DNA of 64,000 nucleotides from Leuconostoc suionicum. GTDB lineage: Bacteria > Bacillota > Bacilli > Lactobacillales > Lactobacillaceae. A program made the translations under genes and the position numbers. The stretch covers positions 1,777,501 through 1,841,500 of the forward strand of contig NZ_CP015247.1 of assembly GCF_001891125.1 (NCBI RefSeq), read 5' to 3'. The notes beneath the pieces are model-generated. The model made no database searches. It worked only from the letters and a program-made list of their open reading frames with translations, and was not told where the DNA came from. Within the stretch, counting starts at the first letter, position 1. Every line of letters begins with the position of its first letter. This document shows positions 2,156 to 52,763 of this stretch, in pieces.

Positions 2156-3214
2156 TTACTGCAATGTTAGCTTAAGATCTTCTGCTTTAATCATTTTCAA
2201 CTTAGTCATGAATAACCATTTTAAAACTGTAGCGATAATAATAGGAAGTATGACAAATACCAGCAAAACACTAAATATAGATACAACGCTTTTGTCTGAT
2301 TCCGACCAAGCCGTCAACGGACCGACTAATCCAGAGAATCCAAACCCTGCGGAAAATGGCGTTCCTTTGATATTCAACATAGTTGCTACCGCACCCATTA
2401 TTGCCGCACCAATACTTGTTGGTATAAATAGTTTGGGTTTTACTAACATATTTGCCATTTGAATTTTTGGTGAGCCAACAAAATGCGCCAATGTTCCACC
2501 AATGGGATTCACACTAGCGCCCATTAACGCTAATGTAAAACTTGCCACTGTGATTCCTGCATTAGCAGCGCCTGATCCAACTCCTGCCAGGCTAATAGCC
2601 ATCGCAATACCTACCGAAGATAATGGGGAAACAATAAGAAAAGCAAAAATCACCCCTAGGGCCGCGCCCATTACTAGTGGTGTTAATTCAGTAGCATAGG
2701 CGACGCCATCCCCTATCAAAGTTTGCAAGACACTGATTGGCTGTAAGGTCATCAGCCCAATGCCGCCAGCAATAACCGCTACAAATAATGGCTGTAATAA
2801 TATTTTAAAATGTCCAAAAGATTTCTCAGTGATCTTTACCAATATAGATGCCAAAAAGGCTACAAACAAAATATTGAGCATCACACCGCTACCAGAAATA
2901 ATCGTGCCATTGGCTGTGCTTTTCACAACACCAGCAGAAACAAACATCGCAAGCGCGATGGCGCCTGAATCAATTACTGTCAACTTTAAAATTTGACCCA
3001 CAGCAAATCCCGCTACTAATGGCAATGTACTTTGAATCAGTGTTGTCATAAACGCAATCTGGGTAGCAATTTCGTTACCAGAAAACAATAACAGCAATTG
3101 ACTGACCAATGCACTAGGGATCAAAGTCAAAACTATACCCAAGCTCGTACCATTCAATATATCAATAATGAATTTTTTTATTGTTGCCGCGGAACTACGT
3201 TTAACTGATTTCAT
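2156..3214 (-). CDS. Orphan PTS EIIC-like membrane protein (PTS_EIIC_2/PfoR-type)
   Basis: A 352-residue polytopic membrane protein with about nine or ten hydrophobic segments. The composition and Gly-rich motifs (for example VGSGAANAGIT near residue 210 and NPIGGTLAHFVGSP near 235) are of the type annotated as PTS sugar transporter subunit IIC, PTS_EIIC_2/PfoR family. No IIA or IIB domain is fused or adjacent, so phosphotransfer-coupled sugar uptake is doubtful. It is the last gene of the operon with the aminotransferase and hydroxyacid dehydrogenase (34-bp gap holding a GCGC-TTCG-GCGC hairpin), so it might move a substrate or product of those enzymes; that is inference. SD GGAAAG precedes the ATG. 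Confidence 0.75.
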   Translation of the reverse strand: MKSVKRSSAATIKKFIIDILNGTSLGIVLTLIPSALVSQLLLLFSGNEIATQIAFMTTLIQSTLPLVAGFAVGQILKLTVIDSGAIALAMFVSAGVVKSTANGTIISGSGVMLNILFVAFLASILVKITEKSFGHFKILLQPLFVAVIAGGIGLMTLQPISVLQTLIGDGVAYATELTPLVMGAALGVIFAFLIVSPLSSVGIAMAISLAGVGSGAANAGITVASFTLALMGASVNPIGGTLAHFVGSPKIQMANMLVKPKLFIPTSIGAAIMGAVATMLNIKGTPFSAGFGFSGLVGPLTAWSESDKSVVSIFSVLLVFVILPIIIATVLKWLFMTKLKMIKAEDLKLTLQ

Positions 3215-3248: not shown

Positions 3249-4238
3249 TTAAACTTCGTGTGGTGAAGATTGACCGTTTAATATCATTAATGTGTCATCT
3301 AACGAAATATCAACCATGTTCTTGACGGCTATGTTAGTAAAGAAGCCAACATGAGGCGTAATAATTACGTTTGACATTGATAATAGTTTTTGGATGCGTG
3401 CATCTTGCACCCTCTGATTATGTAAATCGTGATTGAAAACACCGGACTCGTTTTCCACCGTATCTAACGCCGCGGCACCCACTTGGCCATTTTCTAAAGA
3501 AGTAATTAAATCATTTGTGCTGATAACTGGGCCACGTGAAGCATTTATTAACAACACACCTTTTTTCATTTTTAGGAAATCAGCCTCAGAAAGCAAGTGA
3601 ATTGAGGTTTCATTTAAATCGACATGTATACTAATTACGTCACTTTGTGCCAACAGCTCATCTTTTGTAACGTAGGTAATCACATCACAAAGTGAAGTAT
3701 CAGGGTCCGTATCGTAACCTAAGACGTTGACACCAATACTACTTAGTAGTTTTGCCAATGTACCACCAATTCGCCCTACACCAATAATGCCGATGGTAAC
3801 AGAATGAATTTCTCTTGCTTGCAGGCCGGTCCAGCGAAAATCATTGTTAGCAATCCGTTTTTCAAATTCTGGCGTATGACGCAATAATCTCAGTATCTGC
3901 ATAAGTGCCATTTCGGCAACTGATCTGGGTGAATAGGCTGGTACATTTGTTATTTTTAAACCAGCTTTTTTAGCCAGATCAACTTCAATCATGTCATATC
4001 CAGCGGTCCGTGTCGCTATTTGAGTTATTTGTTTAGCAATATGATCATAAAATTGTTGATTCCCACCAATTTTTGCAGTTTGTTGTATGATTAATCCGTC
4101 AATTTCTGTTAAGTTAGGTAGTGTTTCAGGATGGAAATCATCACGAGAAATCACTATTTCCACATTATTCTTTTCAGCGTAGTGACGAATAGCCTGCTCT
4201 TCGTCACTACGCACACTTGTCATCAATATTCTATTCAT
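3249..4238 (-). CDS. NAD-dependent D-2-hydroxyacid dehydrogenase
   Basis: A 329-residue member of the D-isomer-specific 2-hydroxyacid dehydrogenase (D-lactate dehydrogenase-like) family. Visible motifs are the nucleotide-binding GVGRIGG (153-159) with an acidic residue after the second strand (D176, favouring NAD), and the catalytic set R235 (NASRGP), E262/E264 and H296 (TPHVGFF). The family reduces 2-keto acids to D-2-hydroxy acids. Its start overlaps the aminotransferase stop by 4 nt (ATGA), so the two are translationally coupled. The pair would convert amino acids to keto acids and then to hydroxy acids, for example phenylpyruvate to phenyllactate; substrate choice is inferred from the leader peptide and neighbour. 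Confidence 0.88.
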   Translation of the reverse strand: MNRILMTSVRSDEEQAIRHYAEKNNVEIVISRDDFHPETLPNLTEIDGLIIQQTAKIGGNQQFYDHIAKQITQIATRTAGYDMIEVDLAKKAGLKITNVPAYSPRSVAEMALMQILRLLRHTPEFEKRIANNDFRWTGLQAREIHSVTIGIIGVGRIGGTLAKLLSSIGVNVLGYDTDPDTSLCDVITYVTKDELLAQSDVISIHVDLNETSIHLLSEADFLKMKKGVLLINASRGPVISTNDLITSLENGQVGAAALDTVENESGVFNHDLHNQRVQDARIQKLLSMSNVIITPHVGFFTNIAVKNMVDISLDDTLMILNGQSSPHEV

Positions 4239-5428
4239 TTACCATTTTCTTCCATATAAGCGGTCAAACGGTGCATAGCTTTTTGCAGTGTTTCAATTGA
4301 TGCTGCATAGCTTAGTCGAATATATCCTTCTCCTCCAGGACCAAATGACGAACCTGGAATCAAAGCTAGACCATTCTTTTGAGCTAAATCACGAGCAAAA
4401 GCAAAATCATCCTGAATATAGCCAGCCGGTATTTTAGCAAAAATATAGAATGCCCCATCTGGTTTAGCAACTTTAAAACCAAGTTGTGTCATTGTGTCAT
4501 AAACATAATCACGTCGTTGAAGATACTCAGCCTTCATGACTAACGTATCTTGCCGCCCTGCCTCTGTCCCTAACGCCTCTGCAGCTGCAGCCATAGCCGG
4601 ATTAGAGGCAGTTGTTGTTGCAAATTGGTGAATCATCGCTATTTTTTGAACCAATTGTGCTGGACCAGCCAAAATACCAATGCGATAACCCGTCATTGCA
4701 TGTGATTTTGAAACACCATTCAGCAAAATTGTTTGTTCAGGCAAATATTTAGCCATTGATACATGACTATTTTCATATGATAGCTCAGAGTAAATCTCAT
4801 CGGAAATAACAATAATGTCAGTACCACGCAAAACATCTGCAATCGCTTTTATTTGTTCATCATTGTAAGTAACCCCAGTTGGATTAGATGGGAAGTTTAG
4901 TACAACGGCTTTGATATCATCCCCATGCTTAGCAATTGCATCCTTTAGCATCTCTGGACTTAATACAAAATCATTTGACGAGGTATCGATAAATACTGGT
5001 TCAGCACCATCTACTAACCCCACTGCTATATATAATGGGAAAATCGGTGTGGGGAGTATAATTTTATCCCCTGGATTTAATATAGTTGTGAGCGTATCAT
5101 AAATAGCTTCAGTTGCCCCTATAGTTACAATAATTTCGTTAGTAGGATTGTAATCGATATCATAACGGTCTGCCAAGAATCCAGCCGCAGCCTCACGTAA
5201 ATGAATCGTACCATTTGATGCAGCATAGTGTGAATCATTTGCCTCAATCGACCGAATTGCCGCTTGTTTAATGTGATCGGGTACATTAAAATCTGGTTCC
5301 CCTAACGTCAGCTTAATAATATCTGGAATCTCACTCACCTCAATATCAAATGCTCGAATAGCAGATGGACCAACAAGTTTCAAATGTTGATTGAGATTAT
5401 TCAATAACGAGGGTTTTACTTCTGGCAT
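4235..5428 (-). CDS. PLP-dependent aminotransferase, probably aromatic (AraT/PatA type)
   Basis: A 397-residue fold-type I class I/II aminotransferase. N182 (SNPTG), D210, Y213, the Schiff-base lysine K241 (VSKSHAMTGYRIG) and R249 are all in place. Such enzymes swap amino groups between amino acids and 2-oxoglutarate. Aromatic specificity is inferred from the upstream leader peptide rich in Phe and Tyr codons and from the coupled 2-hydroxyacid dehydrogenase. It is first in a three-gene operon behind a terminator at 5446-5487; SD is AGGGAGAAAATT before ATG. It may serve either the last step of Phe/Tyr synthesis or aromatic catabolism. Confidence 0.88.
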   Translation of the reverse strand: MPEVKPSLLNNLNQHLKLVGPSAIRAFDIEVSEIPDIIKLTLGEPDFNVPDHIKQAAIRSIEANDSHYAASNGTIHLREAAAGFLADRYDIDYNPTNEIIVTIGATEAIYDTLTTILNPGDKIILPTPIFPLYIAVGLVDGAEPVFIDTSSNDFVLSPEMLKDAIAKHGDDIKAVVLNFPSNPTGVTYNDEQIKAIADVLRGTDIIVISDEIYSELSYENSHVSMAKYLPEQTILLNGVSKSHAMTGYRIGILAGPAQLVQKIAMIHQFATTTASNPAMAAAAEALGTEAGRQDTLVMKAEYLQRRDYVYDTMTQLGFKVAKPDGAFYIFAKIPAGYIQDDFAFARDLAQKNGLALIPGSSFGPGGEGYIRLSYAASIETLQKAMHRLTAYMEENGK

Positions 5429-5445: not shown

Positions 5446-5487
5446 AACACAAAACGCACATCCAGAAAAAATTCTGAATGTGCGTTT
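5446..5487 (-). terminator. Attenuator terminator upstream of the aminotransferase
   Basis: On the minus strand AAACGCACATTCAGAA (5487-5472), a TTTT loop and the complementary arm at 5467-5452 form a 16-bp stem with one G-U pair, followed by a short U-rich tail. It lies between the leader peptide and the aminotransferase SD. Its 5' arm contains CATTCAGAA, complementary over 9 bp to TTCTGAATG at 5522-5514, which gives a clear antiterminator alternative. Confidence 0.8.
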
Positions 5488-5567
5488 GCTCAAATATAGA
5501 TGAACTCACTAGGCATTCAGAAGATTAATCCGAATACCTACGCAAAATGCCTTAAGTACTTGGATAG

Positions 5568-5624
5568 TTAGCCAAAATACTTAAAGTAAAAATTTGCTGT
5601 AGTTTTGTTCATTAAATGTGACAT
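5568..5624 (-). CDS. Leader peptide rich in Phe/Tyr (attenuator peptide)
   Basis: An 18-residue ORF, MSHLMNKTTANFYFKYFG, with an AAAGG-type SD about 10 nt upstream. Codons 12-17 read Phe-Tyr-Phe-Lys-Tyr-Phe. The same nucleotides (5586-5576) form the 5' arm of a stem with 5561-5550. It ends about 80 nt before the terminator that guards the aminotransferase gene. This is the layout of a ribosome-stalling leader peptide sensing charged tRNA-Phe/tRNA-Tyr. It is too short to be found by usual ORF calling. Confidence 0.8.
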   Translation of the reverse strand: MSHLMNKTTANFYFKYFG

Positions 5625-5657
5625 TGTGTTAAAACCTTTTTATTTTGTATGAGATTA

Positions 5658-5686
5658 ATTTTAATATTAATTCAATCATTTGTCAA
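5658..5686 (-). promoter_or_regulatory. Promoter of the aminotransferase operon leader
   Basis: Minus strand: -35 TTGACA (5681-5686), 17-bp spacer, -10 TAAAAT (5658-5663). A start near 5650 gives a leader of about 220 nt ahead of the aminotransferase, containing the leader peptide and terminator. Confidence 0.8.
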
Positions 5687-6410: not shown

Positions 6411-7811
6411 ATGTCACTTCTTGCGCGAGCTTTTAAGCGGGAATCTGTTGATAATTACCTAAGTGCAGATTCACATATGTCGCGTGTTTTAACAACGCGC
6501 GACTTAATTAGTCTAGGAGTAGGCACAGTCATTGGTACAGGAATATTTATTTTTCCTGGCCACGAAGCCGCTGATCATGCGGGTCCAGCAGTAGCTATTG
6601 CATTTCTAATTGCTGCAATTTTCTCTGGATTATCAGGAATGGCTTTTGCTGAGTTTTCAGCCGCCATGCCAGTTGCTGGCTCAGCTTACTCATATGGGGG
6701 TGCTATTTACGGAGAAATCATTGGTTGGCTATTAGGTTGGTCATTAATTGTCGAATATTTCTTAGCAGTATCAGCAATTGCAACTGGATTTTCAGCTTAC
6801 CTTGGTAATTTATTAGCTATATTCGGCATTCATATCCCCAAATATTTATCTGCCGGCCCAATGGAAGGCGGAATTGTCAATTTATTTGCAGTATTAATTA
6901 TCTTATTCGTCGCTGCTATACTGTCACGAGGATTAAACACTTCAAAGAAGGTTGAAAATGGCGCAGTAGTTATCAAAATTGCTATTTTAATCTTATTCAT
7001 TGTTGGCGGATCATTTTTTATTAAAACAAGCAATTATGTACCATTTTATCCTAAAGAATTTCACAGTGGATTGGGCGGCTTGAACGGAATTTGGGCCGCA
7101 ACTGCTAGCATTATTTTTGCTTTCCTAGGCTTTGATACCATCGCTGCCCACGCTGCTGAAGTTAAGAACCCACAAAAGACAATGGCCAAAGGTATTGTTG
7201 GTACGGTTATTATTTCAGCCCTATTATACACACTCTTCTCTATAGTGTTAACGGGAATTGTCAATTATAAAAAACTTGGTGTTGATGACCCAGCAGCATT
7301 TGCGCTGCAAGTTGTACATCAAACACAGTTCTCTATCGTCATTACTATTGGTGCGTTAATCGGTATGTTCACAGCTGTATTAGCCCTGATCTATGCCTCA
7401 TCCCGATTAACTTATTCTTTCGGGCGTGACGGTTTACTTCCGCGCAGCCTAGGTAAAATATCACCAGGATCGCATTTACCAGTAAATGCATTAATTTTGG
7501 CAGTTGTCGTTGAAGTTATTTTCGCGGGTCTTATCCCCCTCAGCACATTGGCTAGTTTAATTAACGCGGGTACTTTAACAGCATTCGCCTTTATTAATTT
7601 CGGTATCCTAATTCTTCGTCGTCGTAAAGATTTAGCTCACGATGGTTTCAAAGTGCCTGGCTATCCAATTGTACCTTTTATTGCGGGTATGATAAGTTTG
7701 TTCTTTATTACGCAACTATCTGCCGAGACACTCAAAATGTTTGGCATCTGGTTACTCCTTGGTATTATCTGGTACTTCTCCTATGGTATTAAGCATTCTA
7801 AATTATCATAA
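6411..7811 (+). CDS. APC-family amino acid permease (CAT/YfnA-like)
   Basis: A 466-residue, 12-TM amino acid-polyamine-organocation transporter. The first helix carries GVGTVIGTGIFIFPG (near residues 36-50), the substrate-binding GTGIF motif of the family, and helix 6 has FAFLGFDTIAAHAAE, typical of the cationic amino acid transporter branch. It is preceded by SD GGGAG and stands as a single gene ending at a strong bidirectional terminator. Substrate cannot be told from sequence. Confidence 0.88.
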   Translation: MSLLARAFKRESVDNYLSADSHMSRVLTTRDLISLGVGTVIGTGIFIFPGHEAADHAGPAVAIAFLIAAIFSGLSGMAFAEFSAAMPVAGSAYSYGGAIYGEIIGWLLGWSLIVEYFLAVSAIATGFSAYLGNLLAIFGIHIPKYLSAGPMEGGIVNLFAVLIILFVAAILSRGLNTSKKVENGAVVIKIAILILFIVGGSFFIKTSNYVPFYPKEFHSGLGGLNGIWAATASIIFAFLGFDTIAAHAAEVKNPQKTMAKGIVGTVIISALLYTLFSIVLTGIVNYKKLGVDDPAAFALQVVHQTQFSIVITIGALIGMFTAVLALIYASSRLTYSFGRDGLLPRSLGKISPGSHLPVNALILAVVVEVIFAGLIPLSTLASLINAGTLTAFAFINFGILILRRRKDLAHDGFKVPGYPIVPFIAGMISLFFITQLSAETLKMFGIWLLLGIIWYFSYGIKHSKLS

Positions 7812-7820
7812 TCTAAAATA

Positions 7821-7860
7821 AAAGGAGCCACCGCTCAATAACGGTGGCTCCTTTTATTTT
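7821..7860. terminator. Bidirectional terminator between APC permease and ezrA
   Basis: A 13-bp perfect stem (7821-7833 with 7842-7854, core GGAGCCACCG) with an 8-nt loop and T-rich tails on both strands, placed between two convergent genes. Confidence 0.9.
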
Positions 7861-7862
7861 GA

Positions 7863-9578
7863 CTATACTAACGGCGTTTTTCGGCGCATGTATGAATCAA
7901 CTAATCTTTCATAAACACCTGGTTCAGCACTGTCAAGAGCTGAGCCGAGGATATCCATTGCCTGCTTGAAATTATAGTCCCTCTCGTAAAACATTCGTGC
8001 TTGCTCGCTCGCAGCAGCAACACGTTCATTCGAAGCACGATAACGATTAGCATATTGTAATAGCTGTTCAGTGAGTGCAGCCTGATCAACAATTTCTTCT
8101 GTCTTTTCTTTTAATGTATCAATGTCAGCTGATACAATGTTCAATTGACGTTGTACCTCATCCATGTCAATCAAATTTGTATTTAATGACTTAGCAAGGC
8201 GCTTTAATTCATTTGATACGGCATAAAAATATTCCAGATAAGCGACTGGCAAACCAGGCAAGTTCATCCGTTCAACGGCGTTCTTAATTGCTTCCACTTC
8301 TTTTTGATATTGTCCACCTAGTTGTCTAGCTGATCGATCAGCTTTTTCCAATCCAGAAATTTTATCCCAAATGTCTACCTGTTGCGTCTCAATTTCTTCA
8401 AACTGCTTCAGCAATTTTTCTTGCTGAATTCGCAATTCACTGTATGATATTTCTTTGGCTTCAAGTAAATCATCATTATGATTAATTTGCTCCTCTGCCA
8501 TGTTGATTTGTTCAAGTAAAGTACGTCTTGTTTCCAACTCTTTATGATTAAATTGGAAGCTTTGACCTAATCTATCCAGCTCAATAGATAGTGTCTGATT
8601 TTGCTCACGCAGACGCAATAAATCAGAAGAAAGACGATCGGCATTTTTAGTGACGTGCTTGCGTGCCGTTACTTCCGTTTCCATCGTTTCGTACATTGCA
8701 TCAATACGCTGTTCAATATATCCAGTTTGTTCAGTTACTTCCTTTAGCTTCAAATCTGCTAATAAATTCAAAACTTGCTGGCGTTGTGAGTCAATTGCTT
8801 GAAGTTCTTGCTCCACGCTATCATTTGGAAAAACATAACCGGCTTCTACAAGCTTAGTGTGCCCTTGGGCTAGTTCATTTAATTGATCAACATACTTAAT
8901 GTTTAATTGATCAAACAACTCTGGAATATCAGCCATCATTTTTTCCATTTGAGTTGTTTCCATCGCTAACTGTTCATAGATATCAGAAGCCGTAGCATGA
9001 TCACCATTCTCTGTTAACTCTGTAAACTCGTCGTAGTCTGCTTCTAATTGACTCAAAAACTTATCTAGGGCAGGGTTAGCTGGTCCAAACTTAAAGTTTT
9101 CAGCAAGCAAACGCTTACGCAATCCCTCATACTTCTTCTTGAGATCATTGATTGCCTCGCGATGCTCTTCATCAGTTTTCTTTAAATCAAGCAGACCAGC
9201 CCGCACATCTTTAATGGTAGTTTCCGTGTCATCCACCATTCCTTGCAAACGTTCTAATTCATTACGTGTCTTAATAAAGTTTATGCCTCGAGCCTCAAAA
9301 AGTACTAAATTAGCTTGTTGATCAATTTTCAAAAACTTATTATTTTGAACATCATTAAAAGCACTCTCAAATTTCTGATAGTTCTTTAAAGACTGGCCTG
9401 TTAAAGGTAACTTTCGTCCCTCTACAAGCTCTTCACGAACTTTCAAAGATTCAAGCTGATCTTTTCTTGCCCTGAGGTCACTAACTTTTTTGACCGTAGT
9501 TCTTTGCATCACAAATATTGCTAAATAAGCGATGACAACCAAAAGTAATATAATTGCTAAGACTGTAAAGTTAAACAT
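7863..9578 (-). CDS. ezrA: Septation ring formation regulator EzrA
   Basis: About 571 residues: one N-terminal membrane helix (residues 4-23, MFNFTVLAIILLL...) followed by an almost wholly alpha-helical, coiled-coil cytoplasmic part rich in Glu, Lys, Leu and Gln. This is the architecture and length of EzrA, which binds FtsZ, limits extra Z-rings and links division to wall synthesis in Firmicutes. I chose the ATG at 9578 because EzrA begins directly with its membrane helix; an in-frame start at 9623 would add 15 basic residues. It is convergent with the APC permease. rpsD on the other side of the gap at 9579-9883 is the usual neighbourhood in lactobacilli. Confidence 0.9.
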   Translation of the reverse strand: MFNFTVLAIILLLVVIAYLAIFVMQRTTVKKVSDLRARKDQLESLKVREELVEGRKLPLTGQSLKNYQKFESAFNDVQNNKFLKIDQQANLVLFEARGINFIKTRNELERLQGMVDDTETTIKDVRAGLLDLKKTDEEHREAINDLKKKYEGLRKRLLAENFKFGPANPALDKFLSQLEADYDEFTELTENGDHATASDIYEQLAMETTQMEKMMADIPELFDQLNIKYVDQLNELAQGHTKLVEAGYVFPNDSVEQELQAIDSQRQQVLNLLADLKLKEVTEQTGYIEQRIDAMYETMETEVTARKHVTKNADRLSSDLLRLREQNQTLSIELDRLGQSFQFNHKELETRRTLLEQINMAEEQINHNDDLLEAKEISYSELRIQQEKLLKQFEEIETQQVDIWDKISGLEKADRSARQLGGQYQKEVEAIKNAVERMNLPGLPVAYLEYFYAVSNELKRLAKSLNTNLIDMDEVQRQLNIVSADIDTLKEKTEEIVDQAALTEQLLQYANRYRASNERVAAASEQARMFYERDYNFKQAMDILGSALDSAEPGVYERLVDSYMRRKTPLV

Positions 9579-14406: not shown

Positions 14407-15846
14407 TTATTTATATTGTTCTAAATCAACATCTTTTAGAGCAATTAGCTTCGTTTTATGAGAAACCTTGTACCAAAAATATAAGATTACAAACAAAGGA
14501 ACTGATAAGTAGGTCACAAATATTTTTTCCACATTTAGATGGGCAAAACTGTCCGGATCCTGACCAATAATAACACCAATAGAAATTACTAGGGCAAATA
14601 GTGGGCCGAATGGGAACCACTTAGCCTTGTATTTCAAATCAGACAGACTCTTCCCTTGCGCCACATAAGCTCTTCGGAAGCGATAATGAGAGATAGCAAT
14701 GCCGACCCAAGCAATGAATCCAGTTAACCCAGAGGCATTGACCAGCCAAGTATAAGCAACTGATCCTCCTTTGGTGTTAGCAATAAATGCTAATAGCCCA
14801 ATCGCGGTAGTTAATACTAAGGCTGCAACTGGTACCCCTCTAGTTGAAAGCTTGGCAAAAATTTTAGGCGCATCCCCTTTACGCGCCATAGCGTACAACA
14901 TACGTGTAGAAGCATATGAACCTGAATTTGCTGACGAAACAATTGATGTTAAGATAACTGCGTTCATTAAACTAGCCGCAAAAGCAATCCCTGCATTTTT
15001 AAATACAATAGTAAATGGTGAGACAGCAATGTTTTGTGTGGAAGAACTCAATAAGCGCGGATCTTTATAGTAAACCAAAGCGGAAATGACAAAAATTGCC
15101 AGAATATAAAACAATAAGATACGCCAAAATACTTGATTTATCGCCTTAGGAACTGACTTATCAGGATCCTTAGCTTCTCCAGCAGTAATACCAATTAACT
15201 CAGTTCCTTGAAAAGAAAATCCGGCAACAACAAAAACCGAGAGTACTGCTTGTGGTCCACCAACAAACCCGTGATTACCGACCGACAAGTTTTTCATGAC
15301 ATTGATGTCAGAATGAATTACACCGAAAATAGTAGCTAGACCAACAACTAGGAAAGCAATGATAGTTATCACCTTAATCATTGATAACCAAAACTCTGCT
15401 TCACCAAAAGTACCAACCGAAAGGATATTAATCAAAAAGATAAGTAATAACGCAACTGCGGAAAATATCCATCCAGGCGTATGTGGAAACCAGAACTCAG
15501 CTACTAAACCAACAGCAACAATATCAACAGCAAGCGTGATAGCCCAATTAAACCAATAGTTCCAACCCATTGCAAATCCCAATGCGGGATCAACATATTT
15601 TCCAGCATAATCAGAAAATGAGCCTGATGTTGGTGAATATGTAGCCATTTCCCCCAGTGAGGTCATTAAAAAATAAACCATTACACCAATAGCTAAATAA
15701 GCAACAATAGCTCCTAGTGGTCCAGCTTGAGCAACAGTTGCTCCTGACGCCACAAATAATCCCGTTCCTATTGAACCACCTAATGCAATCATTGACACAT
15801 GTCGTGTTTTCAATCTACGCTGTATGTGTCTATTATGTTCAGACAT
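14407..15846 (-). CDS. lysP: Lysine-specific permease
   Basis: A 479-residue APC-family transporter with about 12 TM helices. The N-terminus RRLKTRHVSMIALGGSIGTGLFVASG is the amino acid transporter (AAT) family signature, with helix 1 GGSIGTGLFV. LysP identity is supported mainly by context: a lysine riboswitch with terminator directly upstream. Imports lysine by proton symport. Start ATG preceded by GAAGGAGATATT. Monocistronic, ends at the shared terminator with usp. Confidence 0.92.
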   Translation of the reverse strand: MSEHNRHIQRRLKTRHVSMIALGGSIGTGLFVASGATVAQAGPLGAIVAYLAIGVMVYFLMTSLGEMATYSPTSGSFSDYAGKYVDPALGFAMGWNYWFNWAITLAVDIVAVGLVAEFWFPHTPGWIFSAVALLLIFLINILSVGTFGEAEFWLSMIKVITIIAFLVVGLATIFGVIHSDINVMKNLSVGNHGFVGGPQAVLSVFVVAGFSFQGTELIGITAGEAKDPDKSVPKAINQVFWRILLFYILAIFVISALVYYKDPRLLSSSTQNIAVSPFTIVFKNAGIAFAASLMNAVILTSIVSSANSGSYASTRMLYAMARKGDAPKIFAKLSTRGVPVAALVLTTAIGLLAFIANTKGGSVAYTWLVNASGLTGFIAWVGIAISHYRFRRAYVAQGKSLSDLKYKAKWFPFGPLFALVISIGVIIGQDPDSFAHLNVEKIFVTYLSVPLFVILYFWYKVSHKTKLIALKDVDLEQYK

Positions 15847-15898: not shown

Positions 15899-15920
15899 AA
15901 AAAGTCATTATTAATCACTT

Positions 15921-16078
15921 TTCAAAGCGCACCGCAATTTTGCGACAGTCTAGCAACTATTAATCACTAGCCCAAGAATTATCTTGCCAGATAATCCTTT
16001 CGGCAACCTTCCCTTTTACATGATTTCAACATCCTGGCGGACTTCATCATGCGACTCATGTCGGTTGCAACCTCTTTG
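15921..16078 (-). promoter_or_regulatory. Lysine riboswitch aptamer (L box)
   Basis: On the minus strand the L-box core is recognisable: CAAAGAGGTTGC at the 5' end, then GACATGAG, then AAGGGAAGGTTGCCGAAAGG, then TTGGGC and CTGTCGC near the 3' end, with CAAAG/CTTTG closing P1. These are the conserved lysine-binding elements. Lysine binding should free the terminator arm and stop transcription of lysP, so uptake is on when lysine is scarce. Confidence 0.92.
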
Positions 16079-16089
16079 ACACAATCAAA

Positions 16090-18484: not shown

Positions 18485-19693
18485 TTATCTTATTACAGCA
18501 TGACCATGTTGAAAAATTTGCTTCTGTTCTTGCTGCAAAACTTTCATATTATTAATCGGGTTTTCCCGAATCACAATAAAGTCTGCATATTGACCAACCT
18601 CAATAGCACCGTAGTTATCATTAATTCCCATCATTTTAGCTGCGTTAACAGTTGCTGATTTTAGAACTTGCTGAGGCGTCATATGACCAAATTCAACCAT
18701 CATATCCATTTCGACAGCACTTTCATTTCCAAAACCATTGAACGGTGTACCAGAATCTGTTCCCATTACAATATTCACTCCCGCCGCTGCTGCTTTCTCG
18801 ATACTTTTTTGATGTGCCTCCCAGTGTGTAATGGCTCGCTCAATCATCCATGATGGCACTTCATCCGGTCGATCAATAATCCTCTTCATAGCTATCATTG
18901 TTGGTATGACCGATGTTCCTTTGTTTTTCATCAATTCTATCGATTCGTCATCAATATGAAAAGCATGTTCTACAGAATCAACTCCAGCTCGGACAGCAAT
19001 TTTTATTCCTTCGGCACCTTGAGCATGTGCCGCAACTTTAATTCCTTTTTTATGCGCTTCAATCACACCTGCTCGAACTTCATCTTCATTTAATTGAACC
19101 TGATCTGGGGTCTCAAAATCTCCAGCACTTACACCGCCAGTCACCATAAACTTGATTACTTGGGCGCCGCCTTTCATTGCCTGACGTACTGCCTTACGAA
19201 CCTCATCAACACCATCAACTTCAATACCACCACCATTGCTACCATGTCCACCTGTCATTGAAAAGGCTGCACCACTAGCAACCATCATTGGTCCTTGAAT
19301 CCCACCTTCACGCTGCATACGTGCAATTTCAATATCAGTCATACGTGCTGTGCCAACATTTCGTACAACCATCACACCATGATGAAGCATTTTTTTCATA
19401 TTATGTTCGGCCACAATAGCTGCTCGAACATGCTCTTCATCGCTATCAACACCAAATTTTTCCTTTCCAAATTCATGGTTCACATCAGAGTCAATATGAA
19501 TGTGCGCATTAATTAATCCTGGCATAATGTATTTTCCCGCCATATTAATAGCATTTTCGATATCAGGGCCTTCACCTTTTCCAACATCAATATAGCGTCC
19601 CGATTGTTCATCAACAATAACGTACCTGTTTGGATCAAATTCACCTGTTTGTGCATTAAAGCCATTGAAATTGTAATATTTTGTTTTTGTCAT
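18485..19693 (-). CDS. Metal-dependent amidohydrolase (prolidase/imidazolonepropionase-like)
   Basis: A 402-residue amidohydrolase-superfamily enzyme. Metal ligands are visible: HIH (INAHIHID, near residue 64), a catalytic Lys/His region VIKFMVTGG, H in KVAAHAQG, H in SVEHAFHID, and D in GTDSGTPFNG. The group includes Xaa-Pro dipeptidases and imidazolonepropionase-like enzymes. It lies 26 bp downstream of the OppA-like gene and shares its attenuated leader, so an exo- or dipeptide substrate delivered by peptide uptake is plausible. The exact substrate is unknown. Confidence 0.82.
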   Translation of the reverse strand: MTKTKYYNFNGFNAQTGEFDPNRYVIVDEQSGRYIDVGKGEGPDIENAINMAGKYIMPGLINAHIHIDSDVNHEFGKEKFGVDSDEEHVRAAIVAEHNMKKMLHHGVMVVRNVGTARMTDIEIARMQREGGIQGPMMVASGAAFSMTGGHGSNGGGIEVDGVDEVRKAVRQAMKGGAQVIKFMVTGGVSAGDFETPDQVQLNEDEVRAGVIEAHKKGIKVAAHAQGAEGIKIAVRAGVDSVEHAFHIDDESIELMKNKGTSVIPTMIAMKRIIDRPDEVPSWMIERAITHWEAHQKSIEKAAAAGVNIVMGTDSGTPFNGFGNESAVEMDMMVEFGHMTPQQVLKSATVNAAKMMGINDNYGAIEVGQYADFIVIRENPINNMKVLQQEQKQIFQHGHAVIR

Positions 19694-19719: not shown

Positions 19720-21336
19720 TTATTTCCAGTACATATCTTGATATGCTGGTGAATGAAAGCTATTTCCTTTAAATCCACCAATTTTATCAGTAACAACATT
19801 TGCTGTTACTGGTTGATAAATCGGTACCATATAAGCTTTTATTTTAGTAAAATACTGGTTAGCTTTCTGTAACGTTGCATAACGTGCTTTAGCATCGTTT
19901 GTTTCTTCCGCCGCCTGTGCTAAATAACCATCGTATGTCGCATCACTAACTTTTGAAAAATTCAACCCATAACCGGTCTTGCCAATCGCCAATGGGTAAG
20001 CCGCATCTGGTACAGTAACGCTTAATCCCATATTCACCATGTCAAAATCTTGTTTTAATACTTCTGAAACAGCTTGTGAATGTGGCACGTATTTCGTATT
20101 AATAGTGATGCCCTTGAATGCGTGCTCCACAGTATATTGAATATAAGCACCAACTTTTCTACTTGTAGAATCGTCGTCAAATGTCATTGTAAATGTTGCA
20201 CTAGTTTTTCCCGTATCCTTTAGATAGGCTGCCCATTCAGTTTGTGCTTTTTTCTTATCAACTGTAAACTGTGTGCCAGCATCTTTGGTAAAATCCGCAC
20301 CAGTTTTCGGATTTGTCATAATGCCTTTTGGCACCGCATTTGACTGTGGCATTGAGCCATCATTCATTATGTTAGAAGTAATCTCATTACGGTTTATTAC
20401 ATATCCAAATGCTTGCCTTAGGTGTATATTGTTAGTCTTTTCGCTTGTTTCATTAAAATATATGCCCCTAACCACTGCTTGTGGGGTTGCGTGATAGTAC
20501 TTTGTGTTTTTGTAGGTTTTAATATAGTCATCAGAAAGCTGAGCAATGTCTAAGTGTTTATTCTTAAATTCGTTCGCTGCCGTCATTGGTGTCTTAATAA
20601 CTCGCACTTTAACCTTTTGAATTTGTACCTTCTTCGCTGCCCAATAATTAGAATTTTTAGTGAAAGTAAAGCCAGAGTTAGTTCCAGTCCAACCAATCAT
20701 CTGATAGGCTCCATTCGTCACCATATACTTTGACGACGTACCGTATTTAGTACCCCACTTTTCATAGTCTTTAGTATTAACTGGAATAATAGAGGTTGCT
20801 AATTTGTCAAAAGAAGGTGTTGCTTGTGTTAATGTGATTTGCAACGTATGACTATTAATTGCCTTAACACCAATTTTATCCGGTGACATTTTACCTGAGT
20901 GAACATCTTCATAATTTTTCATGATTGATATGGCATCAGCTGAGTTTTGTGATTTTGTTTTTGGATCTGCTATTGCACGGATTGCTGTCACAAAGTCTTG
21001 GGCAGTAACTTTATCTCCATTTGACCATTTAGCATTGTTCCGAATCTTAAATGTATAAACCGTACCATTTTGAGTTGGCTTCACAACTTTATCTGACATT
21101 CCGGCAACAACTTTATCACCTTTATAACGATAAAGCCCTTCATAAACTTGATCTTGGGCCTGACCTGAATAAATATCAGTTGTCATAATTGGGTTCATAG
21201 TCATGACATCATCTTTCATCATAGTTTGCAAAGTTTTAACCTTGTTCTCTGATCCGTTAATGTGTTTCACAAACCAAGTGCCTGCTATAGCACAGATGAC
21301 GAATGCACCTGCCGCCCAACGTATTTTTTTGTTCAT
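19720..21336 (-). CDS. Oligopeptide ABC transporter substrate-binding protein (OppA-like)
   Basis: A 538-residue family 5 extracellular solute-binding protein with an N-terminal membrane helix (about residues 8-25). Visible family motifs include DVMTMNPIMTTD, GLYRY, YTFKIRNNAKWSNGDKVTAQDFV and FDKLATSIIPV. Its N-terminus has a Cys (FVICAIAG) but not a clean lipobox, so it may be anchored by an uncleaved helix or atypical lipidation. No permease or ATPase genes are adjacent, so it must work with an Opp system elsewhere. Controlled by the Leu-rich leader attenuator upstream. Confidence 0.88.
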   Translation of the reverse strand: MNKKIRWAAGAFVICAIAGTWFVKHINGSENKVKTLQTMMKDDVMTMNPIMTTDIYSGQAQDQVYEGLYRYKGDKVVAGMSDKVVKPTQNGTVYTFKIRNNAKWSNGDKVTAQDFVTAIRAIADPKTKSQNSADAISIMKNYEDVHSGKMSPDKIGVKAINSHTLQITLTQATPSFDKLATSIIPVNTKDYEKWGTKYGTSSKYMVTNGAYQMIGWTGTNSGFTFTKNSNYWAAKKVQIQKVKVRVIKTPMTAANEFKNKHLDIAQLSDDYIKTYKNTKYYHATPQAVVRGIYFNETSEKTNNIHLRQAFGYVINRNEITSNIMNDGSMPQSNAVPKGIMTNPKTGADFTKDAGTQFTVDKKKAQTEWAAYLKDTGKTSATFTMTFDDDSTSRKVGAYIQYTVEHAFKGITINTKYVPHSQAVSEVLKQDFDMVNMGLSVTVPDAAYPLAIGKTGYGLNFSKVSDATYDGYLAQAAEETNDAKARYATLQKANQYFTKIKAYMVPIYQPVTANVVTDKIGGFKGNSFHSPAYQDMYWK

Positions 21337-21380: not shown

Positions 21381-21413
21381 AAAATAAAAACCAATCCTAT
21401 ATTGGATTGGTTT
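21381..21413 (-). terminator. Attenuator terminator upstream of oppA-like gene
   Basis: Minus strand AACCAATCC-AATATA-GGATTGGTT followed by TTTATTTTATTT, 45 nt before the start codon. Its 5' arm AATCCA can alternatively pair with TGGATT at 21448-21443. Confidence 0.85.
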
Positions 21414-21486
21414 CGTGATTGTATCATTATTCACGGAGAGCAAATCCAGTCGCATATATTTTAGCGACTGAAAATGCTCAACCGCC

Positions 21487-21561
21487 TTACTCGAGAATGA
21501 GGGCGTTGAGAAGTAGTTGTGATTGTACAGCCTGTGTTTGCATGTTTATTTTAATCATCAT
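21487..21561 (-). CDS. Leu-rich leader peptide (attenuator peptide)
   Basis: A 24-residue ORF with SD GGGAG a few nt upstream and a tandem ATG start. Its C-terminal part reads QLLLNALILE: five Leu and one Ile in eight codons. Those codons (21510-21502) form the 5' arm of a stem with 21486-21477. Downstream come two alternative 7-bp hairpins (GCGGTTG with CAGTCGC, or CAGTCGC with GCGACTG) and then the terminator. It fits a stalling peptide that senses leucyl-tRNA, controlling the oligopeptide-binding protein and amidohydrolase. Confidence 0.78.
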   Translation of the reverse strand: MMIKINMQTQAVQSQLLLNALILE

Positions 21562-21591
21562 GTTGTTCTCCCGACATATTTGATGAAATTA

Positions 21592-21620
21592 ATATTACAT
21601 TATTTTCTTTATATTTTCAA
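21592..21620 (-). promoter_or_regulatory. Promoter of the oppA-like leader
   Basis: Minus strand -35 TTGAAA (21615-21620), 17-bp spacer, -10 TAATAT (21592-21597), leading into the Leu-rich leader peptide. Confidence 0.78.
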
Positions 21621-21651
21621 TACTTTTTCCAAAATCTAATAAATGTGGTTT

Positions 21652-23040
21652 TCAGCTTATATTTTTAGGATATTCAATATGTTGCCAATCCTGATCAAAT
21701 AATATTTCTTGTAATTCATCATCTGTCACATCTTGCCCATCAAGAGACTTTTTATATACTCTTCTTTGATCTTGTAGTGCTCCGTTTTGATACATTTCTG
21801 CTCGTGAAATCGCATATTTTATTAAAGAATTGTCTTCAATTTCATTGCACAATTGCGCTGATAAAGTTATCGAAGGATTAATAACACGTTGGTTTAGTTC
21901 GTTTAGTGTTCGTTGCATATTTACAGAGAGGCCAATCGATTTGACAAAATTTTGAAGGTTATTCATCATATTGATTGCTTCATTTTGGTACCCAGTCATC
22001 GACTGAGCCGGTTCTAAAGCAACTTTTTCATTCATTTTTTCAGCTTTCAATTGATCACTTTCTTGCCAGTCATCTTCATTCATCACAAAATACATTACTA
22101 ATAATCGAATAAAGCGAACAGTAGAACTACGAATACCTATTGATGAAGTTGGATCTAAATCCAACATACGTAATTCCATATAATCAACGCCGTTTTGTGC
22201 CATACCTTTTAGACCTTTTAATGACTTTAATCGAATGGGCCCATGGAATTCTGACTCAGACTGAATCTCTTCTGAATCAATAGCTACTAAAATAGCCTTC
22301 TCATAGTCATGAATACTCGAATAATTTCCTCGAAAATCACTAAACAAGCCATATTCTCGTGATCCTCTTAGTGAACGCACAGGATAATCTGGAACACTGC
22401 CGACATAAAAATTTTGTTCAGAGATAGGCGTAGCACCAAACAAGTAAGTCAACAACCAACTATATTTAATGAAACCATGTGTTACCTTTTCAAATAAAGC
22501 ATTACGTATCGCTGATTTATCCGTATAATCATTTCTAACATAAGCATAGAGTGAATTAATCAGCGCACTGTCAAAGCTTAAATTAACATGTACACCTGTC
22601 GGTAGTGCTCGTCGAATATCATGCTTAGATAACCATTCATGATAGTATTTTTCTTTTTCTGGACTAACATGTGATATTTCTAATGTATTTAAATTCTCAG
22701 GTAATATTGGTGGTAATGAAAGGGGCCAAAGTACTTCATCTTCTTTTAATGCCGACCGTAATGAATAATTTAGTGCGGTTAAATCGCGAATGGCTTCAGC
22801 CGCATTTGCAGCAGTGGGCGTTATAATTTCACTTTGCATATTAAAAAAATCATTTTTGATTCGTCTATTTTTCTCTTGCTCACCAAGTTCTTCTGGAAAT
22901 CCGTGATTAGATAGCTTGCCGTTTTTAAACACTCTATGCATTTCGACTTCTATACCCATTTTGACGTCCATTAAGGCTGTTTCCAAATCTTTCGATAGTA
23001 TCAATTGACCAATTTTGTCTAATTCCATGTTATTTACCAT
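21652..23040 (-). CDS. Stand-alone glutamate-cysteine ligase family enzyme
   Basis: A roughly 462-residue protein with the GshA/GshF N-terminal domain pattern: GIEVEMHRV near residue 30, DFFNMQSEIITP, WPLSLPPILP, LPTGVHVNLSF, KYSWLLTYLFGATP, VRSLRGSREYG, EFHGPIRLKS and YMELRMLDLDP. These form the Glu- and ATP-binding sites of gamma-glutamylcysteine synthetases. The ATP-grasp glutathione synthetase half of bifunctional GshF (about 750 residues) is absent. It sits behind an attenuator whose peptide holds Tyr, Leu, Phe and Ile but no Cys codons, so gamma-glutamylation of other amino acids is possible. The start is uncertain: ATG at 23040 or 23028, neither with a strong SD. Confidence 0.82.
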   Translation of the reverse strand: MVNNMELDKIGQLILSKDLETALMDVKMGIEVEMHRVFKNGKLSNHGFPEELGEQEKNRRIKNDFFNMQSEIITPTAANAAEAIRDLTALNYSLRSALKEDEVLWPLSLPPILPENLNTLEISHVSPEKEKYYHEWLSKHDIRRALPTGVHVNLSFDSALINSLYAYVRNDYTDKSAIRNALFEKVTHGFIKYSWLLTYLFGATPISEQNFYVGSVPDYPVRSLRGSREYGLFSDFRGNYSSIHDYEKAILVAIDSEEIQSESEFHGPIRLKSLKGLKGMAQNGVDYMELRMLDLDPTSSIGIRSSTVRFIRLLVMYFVMNEDDWQESDQLKAEKMNEKVALEPAQSMTGYQNEAINMMNNLQNFVKSIGLSVNMQRTLNELNQRVINPSITLSAQLCNEIEDNSLIKYAISRAEMYQNGALQDQRRVYKKSLDGQDVTDDELQEILFDQDWQHIEYPKNIS

Positions 23041-23130
23041 CAATTCACAATGTTATTTTTAAGATAACAAATAATATCATTATTTTATCATCGCAATAAA
23101 TTGTGTTTCTCCTTTTTTTAATTGCCATTT

Positions 23131-23162
23131 GAACAAAAAAACCTATCCGAAACCGGATAGGT
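23131..23162 (-). terminator. Attenuator terminator upstream of the GCL-family gene
   Basis: Minus strand ACCTATCCGGTTTCGGATAGGT (two 9-bp arms) followed by TTTTTTG. It lies between the leader peptide and the ligase start. Confidence 0.88.
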
Positions 23163-23233
23163 CATGTGAATACGTTCTGTTCAAGACAGCTACCTCCAGT
23201 CGCACTATTAGCAACTGAAAAGACTCAGTCACC

Positions 23234-23302
23234 TTATTTAAAAATAAAGGTACTGAGTAGATATACATACGATGTCTTTATATTCATTGTTTTCTTAATC
23301 AT
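23234..23302 (-). CDS. Tyr/Leu/Phe/Ile leader peptide (attenuator peptide)
   Basis: A 22-residue ORF ending SYVYLLSTFIFK, preceded by a GAGAG-type SD. Its codons at 23257-23249 form a stem with 23233-23224. GTGACTG (23232-23226) can instead pair with CAGTTGC (23217-23211), which can instead pair with GCGACTG (23203-23197). The RNA downstream of the codons closely parallels the leader at 21381-21597, but the amino acid run differs. Likely a stalling peptide reading Tyr, Leu, Phe or Ile-tRNA charging. Confidence 0.75.
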   Translation of the reverse strand: MIKKTMNIKTSYVYLLSTFIFK

Positions 23303-23332
23303 AATGTACTCTCAACTTATTTAATGAACCTA

Positions 23333-23361
23333 ATATTACACTACTGGATGAATGTTTGCAA
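23333..23361 (-). promoter_or_regulatory. Promoter of the GCL-family leader
   Basis: Minus strand -35 TTGCAA (23356-23361), 17-bp spacer, -10 TAATAT (23333-23338), beginning 6 bp after the stop of the upstream permease. The context TGTAATATTA is shared with the promoter at 21592-21620. Confidence 0.75.
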
Positions 23362-52074: not shown

Positions 52075-52763
52075 CATTTTAATTCGATATCAAAAATATC
52101 ATGTTGTTGATTAACATAAACAACCACATCAGCAAGTGTTTTTGTCGGCAAAATATAGTCATCCAAATTTTTTTGATTTGTAGTTTGCCACACTTGCATC
52201 GCTAATTTTGTAAATTCATCCAAGGGCATTTTGGCATAATTATAGCGCCAACTTGAAGGATCATCTTTTGCTAAAGCAGTTACTTCAAGTGTTCGAGTTA
52301 AATACCATTTCTTAATGTCTGCCAGATTAGCATCTATAAATATTTTTAAATCCAGTTGCTCAGCTGGCAACTGCAAAGCAGTTACCCCTTCAATTATAAG
52401 AATATTTGGTAGTTCCACAGTCTGCGTTTCATTTGGGTGGATATCGGCAAGCTCCTGTGTATAAATCGGAATATCTACCGACTTTTCCCCCGAATGAAAT
52501 TGTTTGATTACTTGCTCCAATTGATCAATGTGATAGGTTTGTGGAAAACCTTTTTGTTCAAACAAACCTCGCTCATGGAGTTCTTTATTAGACATCAAAA
52601 AATCATCAGTACTAATAACTGTTGATTTCAAGCCGTGCCTACTTAAATTTTCGGCCAAATTACGTGCGAACGTACTTTTCCCAACTGCCACCGAACCAGT
52701 GATACCAATGACCATAAATGGTGCAACATATCTACCTTCAATGAAACTAACCAAATCAATCAT
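52074..52763 (-). CDS. Short CoaA-like P-loop kinase (pantothenate kinase family)
   Basis: A 229-residue protein with the PanK type I core: GITGSVAVGKSTFARNL (P-loop), STDDFLMSN, RGLFEQKGFPQTYHIDQL, PIYTQELADI and IIEGVTALQL. Type I pantothenate kinases have about 310 residues; the N-terminal 70-80 residues are missing here and TTDGF is STDDF. It could be a shortened CoaA or a related kinase. Its ATG overlaps the helD stop by 1 nt, so the two are coupled; a coaA-helD pairing is unexplained. Confidence 0.7.
   Translation of the reverse strand: MIDLVSFIEGRYVAPFMVIGITGSVAVGKSTFARNLAENLSRHGLKSTVISTDDFLMSNKELHERGLFEQKGFPQTYHIDQLEQVIKQFHSGEKSVDIPIYTQELADIHPNETQTVELPNILIIEGVTALQLPAEQLDLKIFIDANLADIKKWYLTRTLEVTALAKDDPSSWRYNYAKMPLDEFTKLAMQVWQTTNQKNLDDYILPTKTLADVVVYVNQQHDIFDIELK

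Follow-up and report, generated by a model that had tools for sequence, protein, structure and literature searches.

In the his operon attenuator, segments A and B pair by default, B:C together with D:E is antiterminating, and E:F forms the terminator (PMC4046918). The leucine-codon leaders of Leuconostoc suionicum described here are built like this attenuator of Salmonella and E. coli: there are six segments, with a default 1:2 pairing, a 5:6 terminator, an antiterminating 2:3 pairing and a putative 4:5 antiterminator, and the control codons lie before or within segment 1 (PMC4046918). In contrast to the his attenuator, the codons are for leucine (in further leaders for isoleucine or aromatic amino acids) rather than histidine, and the genes serve uptake and salvage. 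No sequence relation to the his attenuator was found (no Rfam match).

Firmicutes are known to have leader-peptide attenuators (PMC2965389, PMC5794164, PMC5864092, PMC9413887). The Listeria Rli60 (PMC5864092) and S. aureus ilvD (PMC5794164) leaders carry a uORF with branched-chain amino acid codons and act by ribosome-mediated attenuation; the leaders described here share both features as proposed. Rli60 is depicted with four segments and precedes the ilv-leu biosynthetic operon, whereas the present leaders have six segments and precede genes for peptide uptake and for a glutamate-cysteine-ligase-family (GCL) protein.

For the control of amino acid genes, Lactobacillaceae are known chiefly for their T-boxes. 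In this genome too, amino acid genes are under the control of T-boxes, which respond to uncharged tRNA; here, in contrast, the translating ribosome would be the sensor. T-boxes (RF00230) have 23 matches in the 2.05 Mb genome, none of them at these leaders. No leader type tested scores above the Rfam gathering cut-off, and no description of these Leuconostoc leaders was found in the open-licence literature.

The window (the whole stretch of DNA analysed) comprises 64,000 nt of the L. suionicum genome and contains three such leaders, all on the minus strand. The first (21381-21620) precedes, and would regulate, a gene for an OppA-like substrate-binding protein (SBP_bac_5; 19720-21336, minus strand) and is referred to as the SBP leader. 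A gap of 26 nt separates this gene from an amidohydrolase gene (18485-19693, minus strand), for which the nearest NCBIfam is Xaa-Pro dipeptidase with a score below cut-off; the two genes are probably on one transcript. The GCL leader (23135-23361) precedes the gene for the GCL protein, its proposed target (PF04262; 21652-23043, minus strand). The third leader (5446-5686) has aromatic codons and precedes, as its probable target, an AraT-like aminotransferase gene (4235-5428, minus strand); the nearest named relative found for this araT is in L. litchii (89%). It is followed on the same strand by genes for a 2-hydroxyacid dehydrogenase (3249-4238) and a PF13303 (PTS_EIIC_2) membrane protein (2156-3214). 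The window also holds an ordinary lysine riboswitch (15917-16084), which precedes a permease gene (14407-15846).

Local alignment of the SBP and GCL leaders gives a score of 56, compared with 11.3±1.7 in dinucleotide shuffles. The parts also align when taken alone: the promoter scores 26 (10.4±1.9 in shuffles), the core 24 (6.6±1.2) and the terminator 16 (7.1±1.2). Because the whole and each of its three parts align significantly, the two leaders are duplicates and not look-alikes; by this sequence measure they are true paralogues from promoter through terminator. The duplicated regulatory cassette suspected in an earlier note on this DNA is thus borne out. The shared features listed there were also confirmed. 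Firstly, each leader has a sigma-A-type promoter, TTGAAA-17-TAATAT for SBP (21592-21620, minus strand) and TTGCAA-17-TAATAT for GCL (23333-23361, minus strand), both contained in TGTAATATTA. Secondly, both uORFs start ATG-ATT-AAA/AAG. Thirdly, the pair shares an 8-nt linker (AGCAUUUU / AGUCUUUU) and the hairpin CAGUYGC/GCGACUG.

In the SBP leader, the uORF MMIKINMQTQAVQSQLLLNALILE (21487-21561, minus strand) has, where stem 1 has its base, the codons CTA CTT CTC (21508-21516). Segment 1 (CUCAACGCC) lies at 21502-21510 and segment 2 (GGCGGUUGAG) at 21477-21486, immediately after the uORF stop; segments 3 (UUCAGUCGC; 21464-21472) and 4 (GCGACUGGAUU; 21443-21453) follow, and segments 5:6 form the intrinsic terminator ACCAAUCC...GGAUUGGU with its U-run (21381-21411), all on the minus strand. 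The GCL leader has the same layout and strand. Its uORF MIKKTMNIKTSYVYLLSTFIFK (23234-23302) has TAT CTA CTC at the stem 1 base; segment 1 (CUCAGUACCUU) is at 23247-23257, segment 2 (AAGGUGACUGAG), which overlaps the uORF stop, at 23224-23235, segment 3 (UUCAGUUGC) at 23211-23219, segment 4 (GCGACUGGAGG) at 23193-23203 and the 5:6 intrinsic terminator at 23135-23163.

The pairing statistics rest on four intact Leu leaders (the two in the window, the SBP leader of the relative G208 and the leader of the relative G211), which makes column statistics weak. In stem 1:2, three pairs have changed on both sides (A-U/G-C, C-G/U-A and G-C/A-U), a number reached in 8 of 500 shuffles; in slid registers just 25-35% of cells are paired. 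The 3:4 pairing is complete in the intact leaders. For the alternative 2:3 pairing, all 28 cells are paired though four of the seven pairs vary; this is modest evidence, and the shuffle test is powerless here because every 2:3 change is one-sided. The changes GUGACUG/CAGUUGC and GCGGUUG/CAGUCGC, taken in the earlier note as compensatory within 3:4, belong in fact to 2:3, where each of the four variable pairs changes on one side; the genuinely compensated pairs are the three in 1:2.

In the four leaders, a pairing of segment 4 with the terminator's 5' arm is possible at -6.3 to -11.7 kcal/mol. Shuffle p values for this 4:5 pairing are 0.044 (own SBP), 0.003 (G208), 0.026 (G211) and 0.13 (own GCL); they are indicative only, as segment borders were widened after the narrower-border result had been seen, and those of the own and G208 SBP leaders are not independent, these being close orthologues. 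With the narrower borders, by which loop-side bases of the register are lost, 4:5 is not significant in three of the four leaders. The terminators are the strongest element, and since 5:6 is stronger than 4:5, switching must be kinetic. The leaders combine mutually exclusive structures (1:2 and 3:4 versus 2:3), ending in an intrinsic terminator 5:6, with a uORF stop that abuts segment 2; this supports the description of both as six-segment attenuators.

In each of the five Leu leaders, one of which is decayed, the start of stem 1 is in frame and lies eight codons from the end of the uORF, with the stop counted. At least two of the three codons at the base of this stem are for leucine in each of the five. 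The three SBP leaders have L-L-L at this place, written CTA CTT CTC, TTA CTC CTC and CTC CTC CTC; the leucine run is thus kept by synonymous change in the orthologues, and LLLN is retained in G208 and G211. The own SBP peptide also has glutamine codons, most of which are not conserved. At the stem base, the own GCL leader reads Y-L-L, and the decayed GCL copy of G208 reads L-L-F.

The most probable explanation, to which we give a probability of about 80%, is that the SBP and GCL leaders arose as paralogues from one transcription attenuator, which is ribosome-mediated and responds to leucine. We infer leucine as the effector, a stalling step, and 4:5 as the antiterminator in this pair. When Leu-tRNA is plentiful, the ribosome would reach the uORF stop and cover segment 2; 3:4 would then form, leaving segment 5 free to form the terminator with segment 6. 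Under a shortage of Leu-tRNA, the ribosome would stall at the leucine codons at the stem 1 base and mask segment 1, so that 2:3 could form; segment 4 would be released to pair with segment 5, and RNA polymerase would enter the gene. Without translation, 1:2 would form and lead to termination. One copy would control the oppA-like/amidohydrolase transcript and the other the GCL-family gene.

The position of the codons matters for this mechanism. By analogy with other attenuators, a ribosome stalled at the stem base would mask segment 1 and free segment 2, while one at the stop would mask segment 2. It was suggested in the earlier note that the two peptides read different amino acids. This is true of the whole peptides but not of the key codons, as Leu-Leu is in register at both stem 1 bases. 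The Leu-to-Phe differences between the paralogues fall downstream of the stem base, where stalling would not help the switch. For these two reasons both leaders most probably read as leucine sensors, the GCL copy less certainly. The own GCL leader has few leucine codons, with tyrosine and valine beside them, and this counts against a leucine reading.

A GCL copy retuned to a different or mixed signal through Tyr/Val/Leu or Phe control codons is the strongest alternative, and an unlikely one. Its peptide YVYLLSTFIFK has tyrosine at -4 and -2 from the stem base and phenylalanine where the SBP peptide has a downstream leucine, and Tyr-Val is retained in the G208 remnant. However, Leu-Leu stands in the same register as in the SBP leader, the G208 copy has two leucine codons (L-L-F), a ribosome stalled at the downstream Phe codons would also cover segment 2, and the GCL gene of G211 sits under a Leu leader. 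With leucine at both stem bases and kept by synonymous change in the SBP orthologues, the proposed change of specificity by codon replacement is not supported, although the cassette is duplicated.

Short peptides with a stop beside a hairpin would also fit leaders that sense a general slow-down of translation or a ribosome-binding drug instead of one amino acid; ermB leaders are reported to act in this way (PMC8274638). This is improbable for the SBP and GCL leaders, as the genes are for uptake or metabolism rather than resistance, and codons match gene function in the related architectures (Ile-brnQ, Ile-ilvD and aromatic-araT). That only the terminators function, controlling read-through of upstream transcription while the uORFs and alternative pairings are incidental, is the least probable: the terminators are indeed the strongest element and 4:5 is weak in the Leu pair, but the leaders have their own promoters and orthologues in three species, their uORFs are conserved with synonymous change, the stop is fixed beside segment 2, and 1:2 contains compensated pairs.

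Covariance models were used to search for further copies. Across 19 Leuconostoc genomes, the Leu model finds the window pair and one intact leader each in G208 and G211, with no third copy in the own genome. In 201 Lactobacillaceae genomes it gives three weak matches, none with a leader; the Leu leader family is small. Searches with the pattern CAGTYGC/GCRACTG gave two more genomic loci, the terminator behind rpsP and a site at about 52353-52373 of the window inside an annotated ORF, neither of which is a leader.

The weak Leu-model matches brought up an Ile attenuator with the peptide ...QIIISIIII. A dedicated Ile model finds this leader in 18 of 19 Leuconostoc genomes; in the own genome it lies before brnQ (C1:1385353-1385474). 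Among the loci read in the family sample, it is found in about ten further genera before brnQ, ilvD (identified from its sequence and not via a family search) and an MHS-type transporter gene. The OFF-state of the Ile set has 11 both-side-changed pairs compared with 5.5 in shuffles, and the 4:5 pairing is present. Model R3 also matched 7787-7880 in the window, between two convergent genes (taken as their terminator), and two family loci (L150 and L159), judged false because they have no uORF carrying an Ile run. Two other loci were noted. The uORF MNKHMNSQVNSIINNAIII in G183 (C12:12289-12401; L107/L175) has hairpins and a terminator and precedes a FAH/hydratase-like gene, a homologue of which sits between the Ile leader and brnQ in other species. 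The leader-like uORF MNKIISATTKLILSVIVIIT in G208 (C2:1933850; L108 / L176 near 850), also with hairpins and a terminator, has no gene of more than 150 aa downstream on that strand and is a candidate orphan or relict attenuator.

The aromatic leader of the window has a uORF MSHLMNKTTANFYFKYFG (5568-5624, minus strand) for an 18-aa peptide of the FYFWYFG type, which is kept in the Leuconostoc species read and lies ahead of araT. Segments 1 to 6 (5448-5586, minus strand) are at 5572-5586, 5550-5563, 5529-5539, 5511-5522, 5472-5486 and 5448-5467. In 11 sequences both 2:3 and 4:5 are backed by covariation, with five both-side-changed pairs in 4:5, which is much clearer than in the Leu leaders; the view that this leader follows the same six-segment logic with unrelated sequence is thereby upheld. 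It is present in 18 of 19 Leuconostoc genomes; outside the genus it precedes araT-like genes, a PF13303 gene and an APC permease gene. In Lacticaseibacillus hulanensis (L057), an 18-aa uORF MSNQQHTAARKFYAWFFG is found upstream of araT; the hairpins there are arranged differently and give no clear counterpart of 3:4 and 4:5.

PF13303 genes recur behind such leaders. In G137 one has its own aromatic leader, and in G136 one lies ahead of ilvE, with an Ile/Val leader (MHMSSSYNFTNLITISVVIII) in front; the genes concerned are at 2156-3214 of the window, L180:1017-2060 and L177:1176-2309. These proteins are possibly amino, keto or hydroxy acid transporters rather than sugar PTS parts.

Codons match gene function in all of these leaders (Ile/brnQ, Ile/ilvD, Ile-Val/ilvE and aromatic/araT), their anatomy is like that of the Leu pair, and both alternative states are backed by covariation. 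The larger family considered possible within the genome thus exists as a shared architecture before brnQ and araT, but without a further Leu copy or detectable sequence kinship to the Leu pair. The outcome that would have spoken against the earlier note, a search without more hits combined with an absence of covariation, did not occur. Pairwise alignments of the SBP and GCL leaders with the own Ile leader are at chance (p=0.40 and 0.82), and models R2 and R3 give the Leu leaders no score. Model R1 gives Ile leaders 10-22 bits; with no reciprocal score from R3 and alignment at chance, common descent of Leu and Ile leaders is not claimed.

Gene order in relatives suggests why the leader was copied. 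In G211, a single Leu leader heads an operon of oppA (SBP), amidohydrolase and GCL genes with gaps of 28 and 54 nt; in the own genome the GCL gene lies upstream of the SBP gene and has a separate leader. The second copy therefore apparently keeps the GCL gene in the SBP regulon. In G208, the GCL gene is reduced to fragments and the uORF of its leader stops at codon 4, while the leader of the SBP gene has stayed intact. Compared with the own leaders, the GCL copy is 74% identical and the SBP copy 87%. The orthologous GCL leader and gene have decayed together.

In G006 and G046, a GCL-family gene lies about 25 nt after brnQ under the Ile leader, and a second GCL gene adjoins with its own leader (MIKSASIKLTVSVSSVTH in G006). 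These neighbouring leaders (loci L172 and L173), the second with Val/Ser codons, are a better candidate for retuning than the window pair. GCL-family genes have come under amino-acid attenuators repeatedly; this hints at a branched-chain amino acid as substrate. Scanning named genomes for close relatives with the GCL protein gave no match. Tentatively, and with the odds somewhat against it, the enzyme may be a branched-chain amino acid gamma-glutamyl ligase (not a glutathione enzyme) of a leucine-starvation regulon, with leaders copied so that genes stay in the regulon when operons are rearranged.

As judged from sequence, the leaders are real, functional-looking and of a known attenuator kind. 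Leader-peptide attenuators occur in Lactobacillaceae in at least three sets (Leu, Ile and aromatic), and those tested have no match in Rfam. The Ile and aromatic sets are conserved across Leuconostoc and found in several other genera. In each of the three sets, the functions of the downstream genes fit the codons. Such leaders predict the specificity of poorly annotated transporters and orphan GCL-family ligases. The SBP and GCL pair clearly exemplifies the duplication of a leader between two genes of apparently one regulon.
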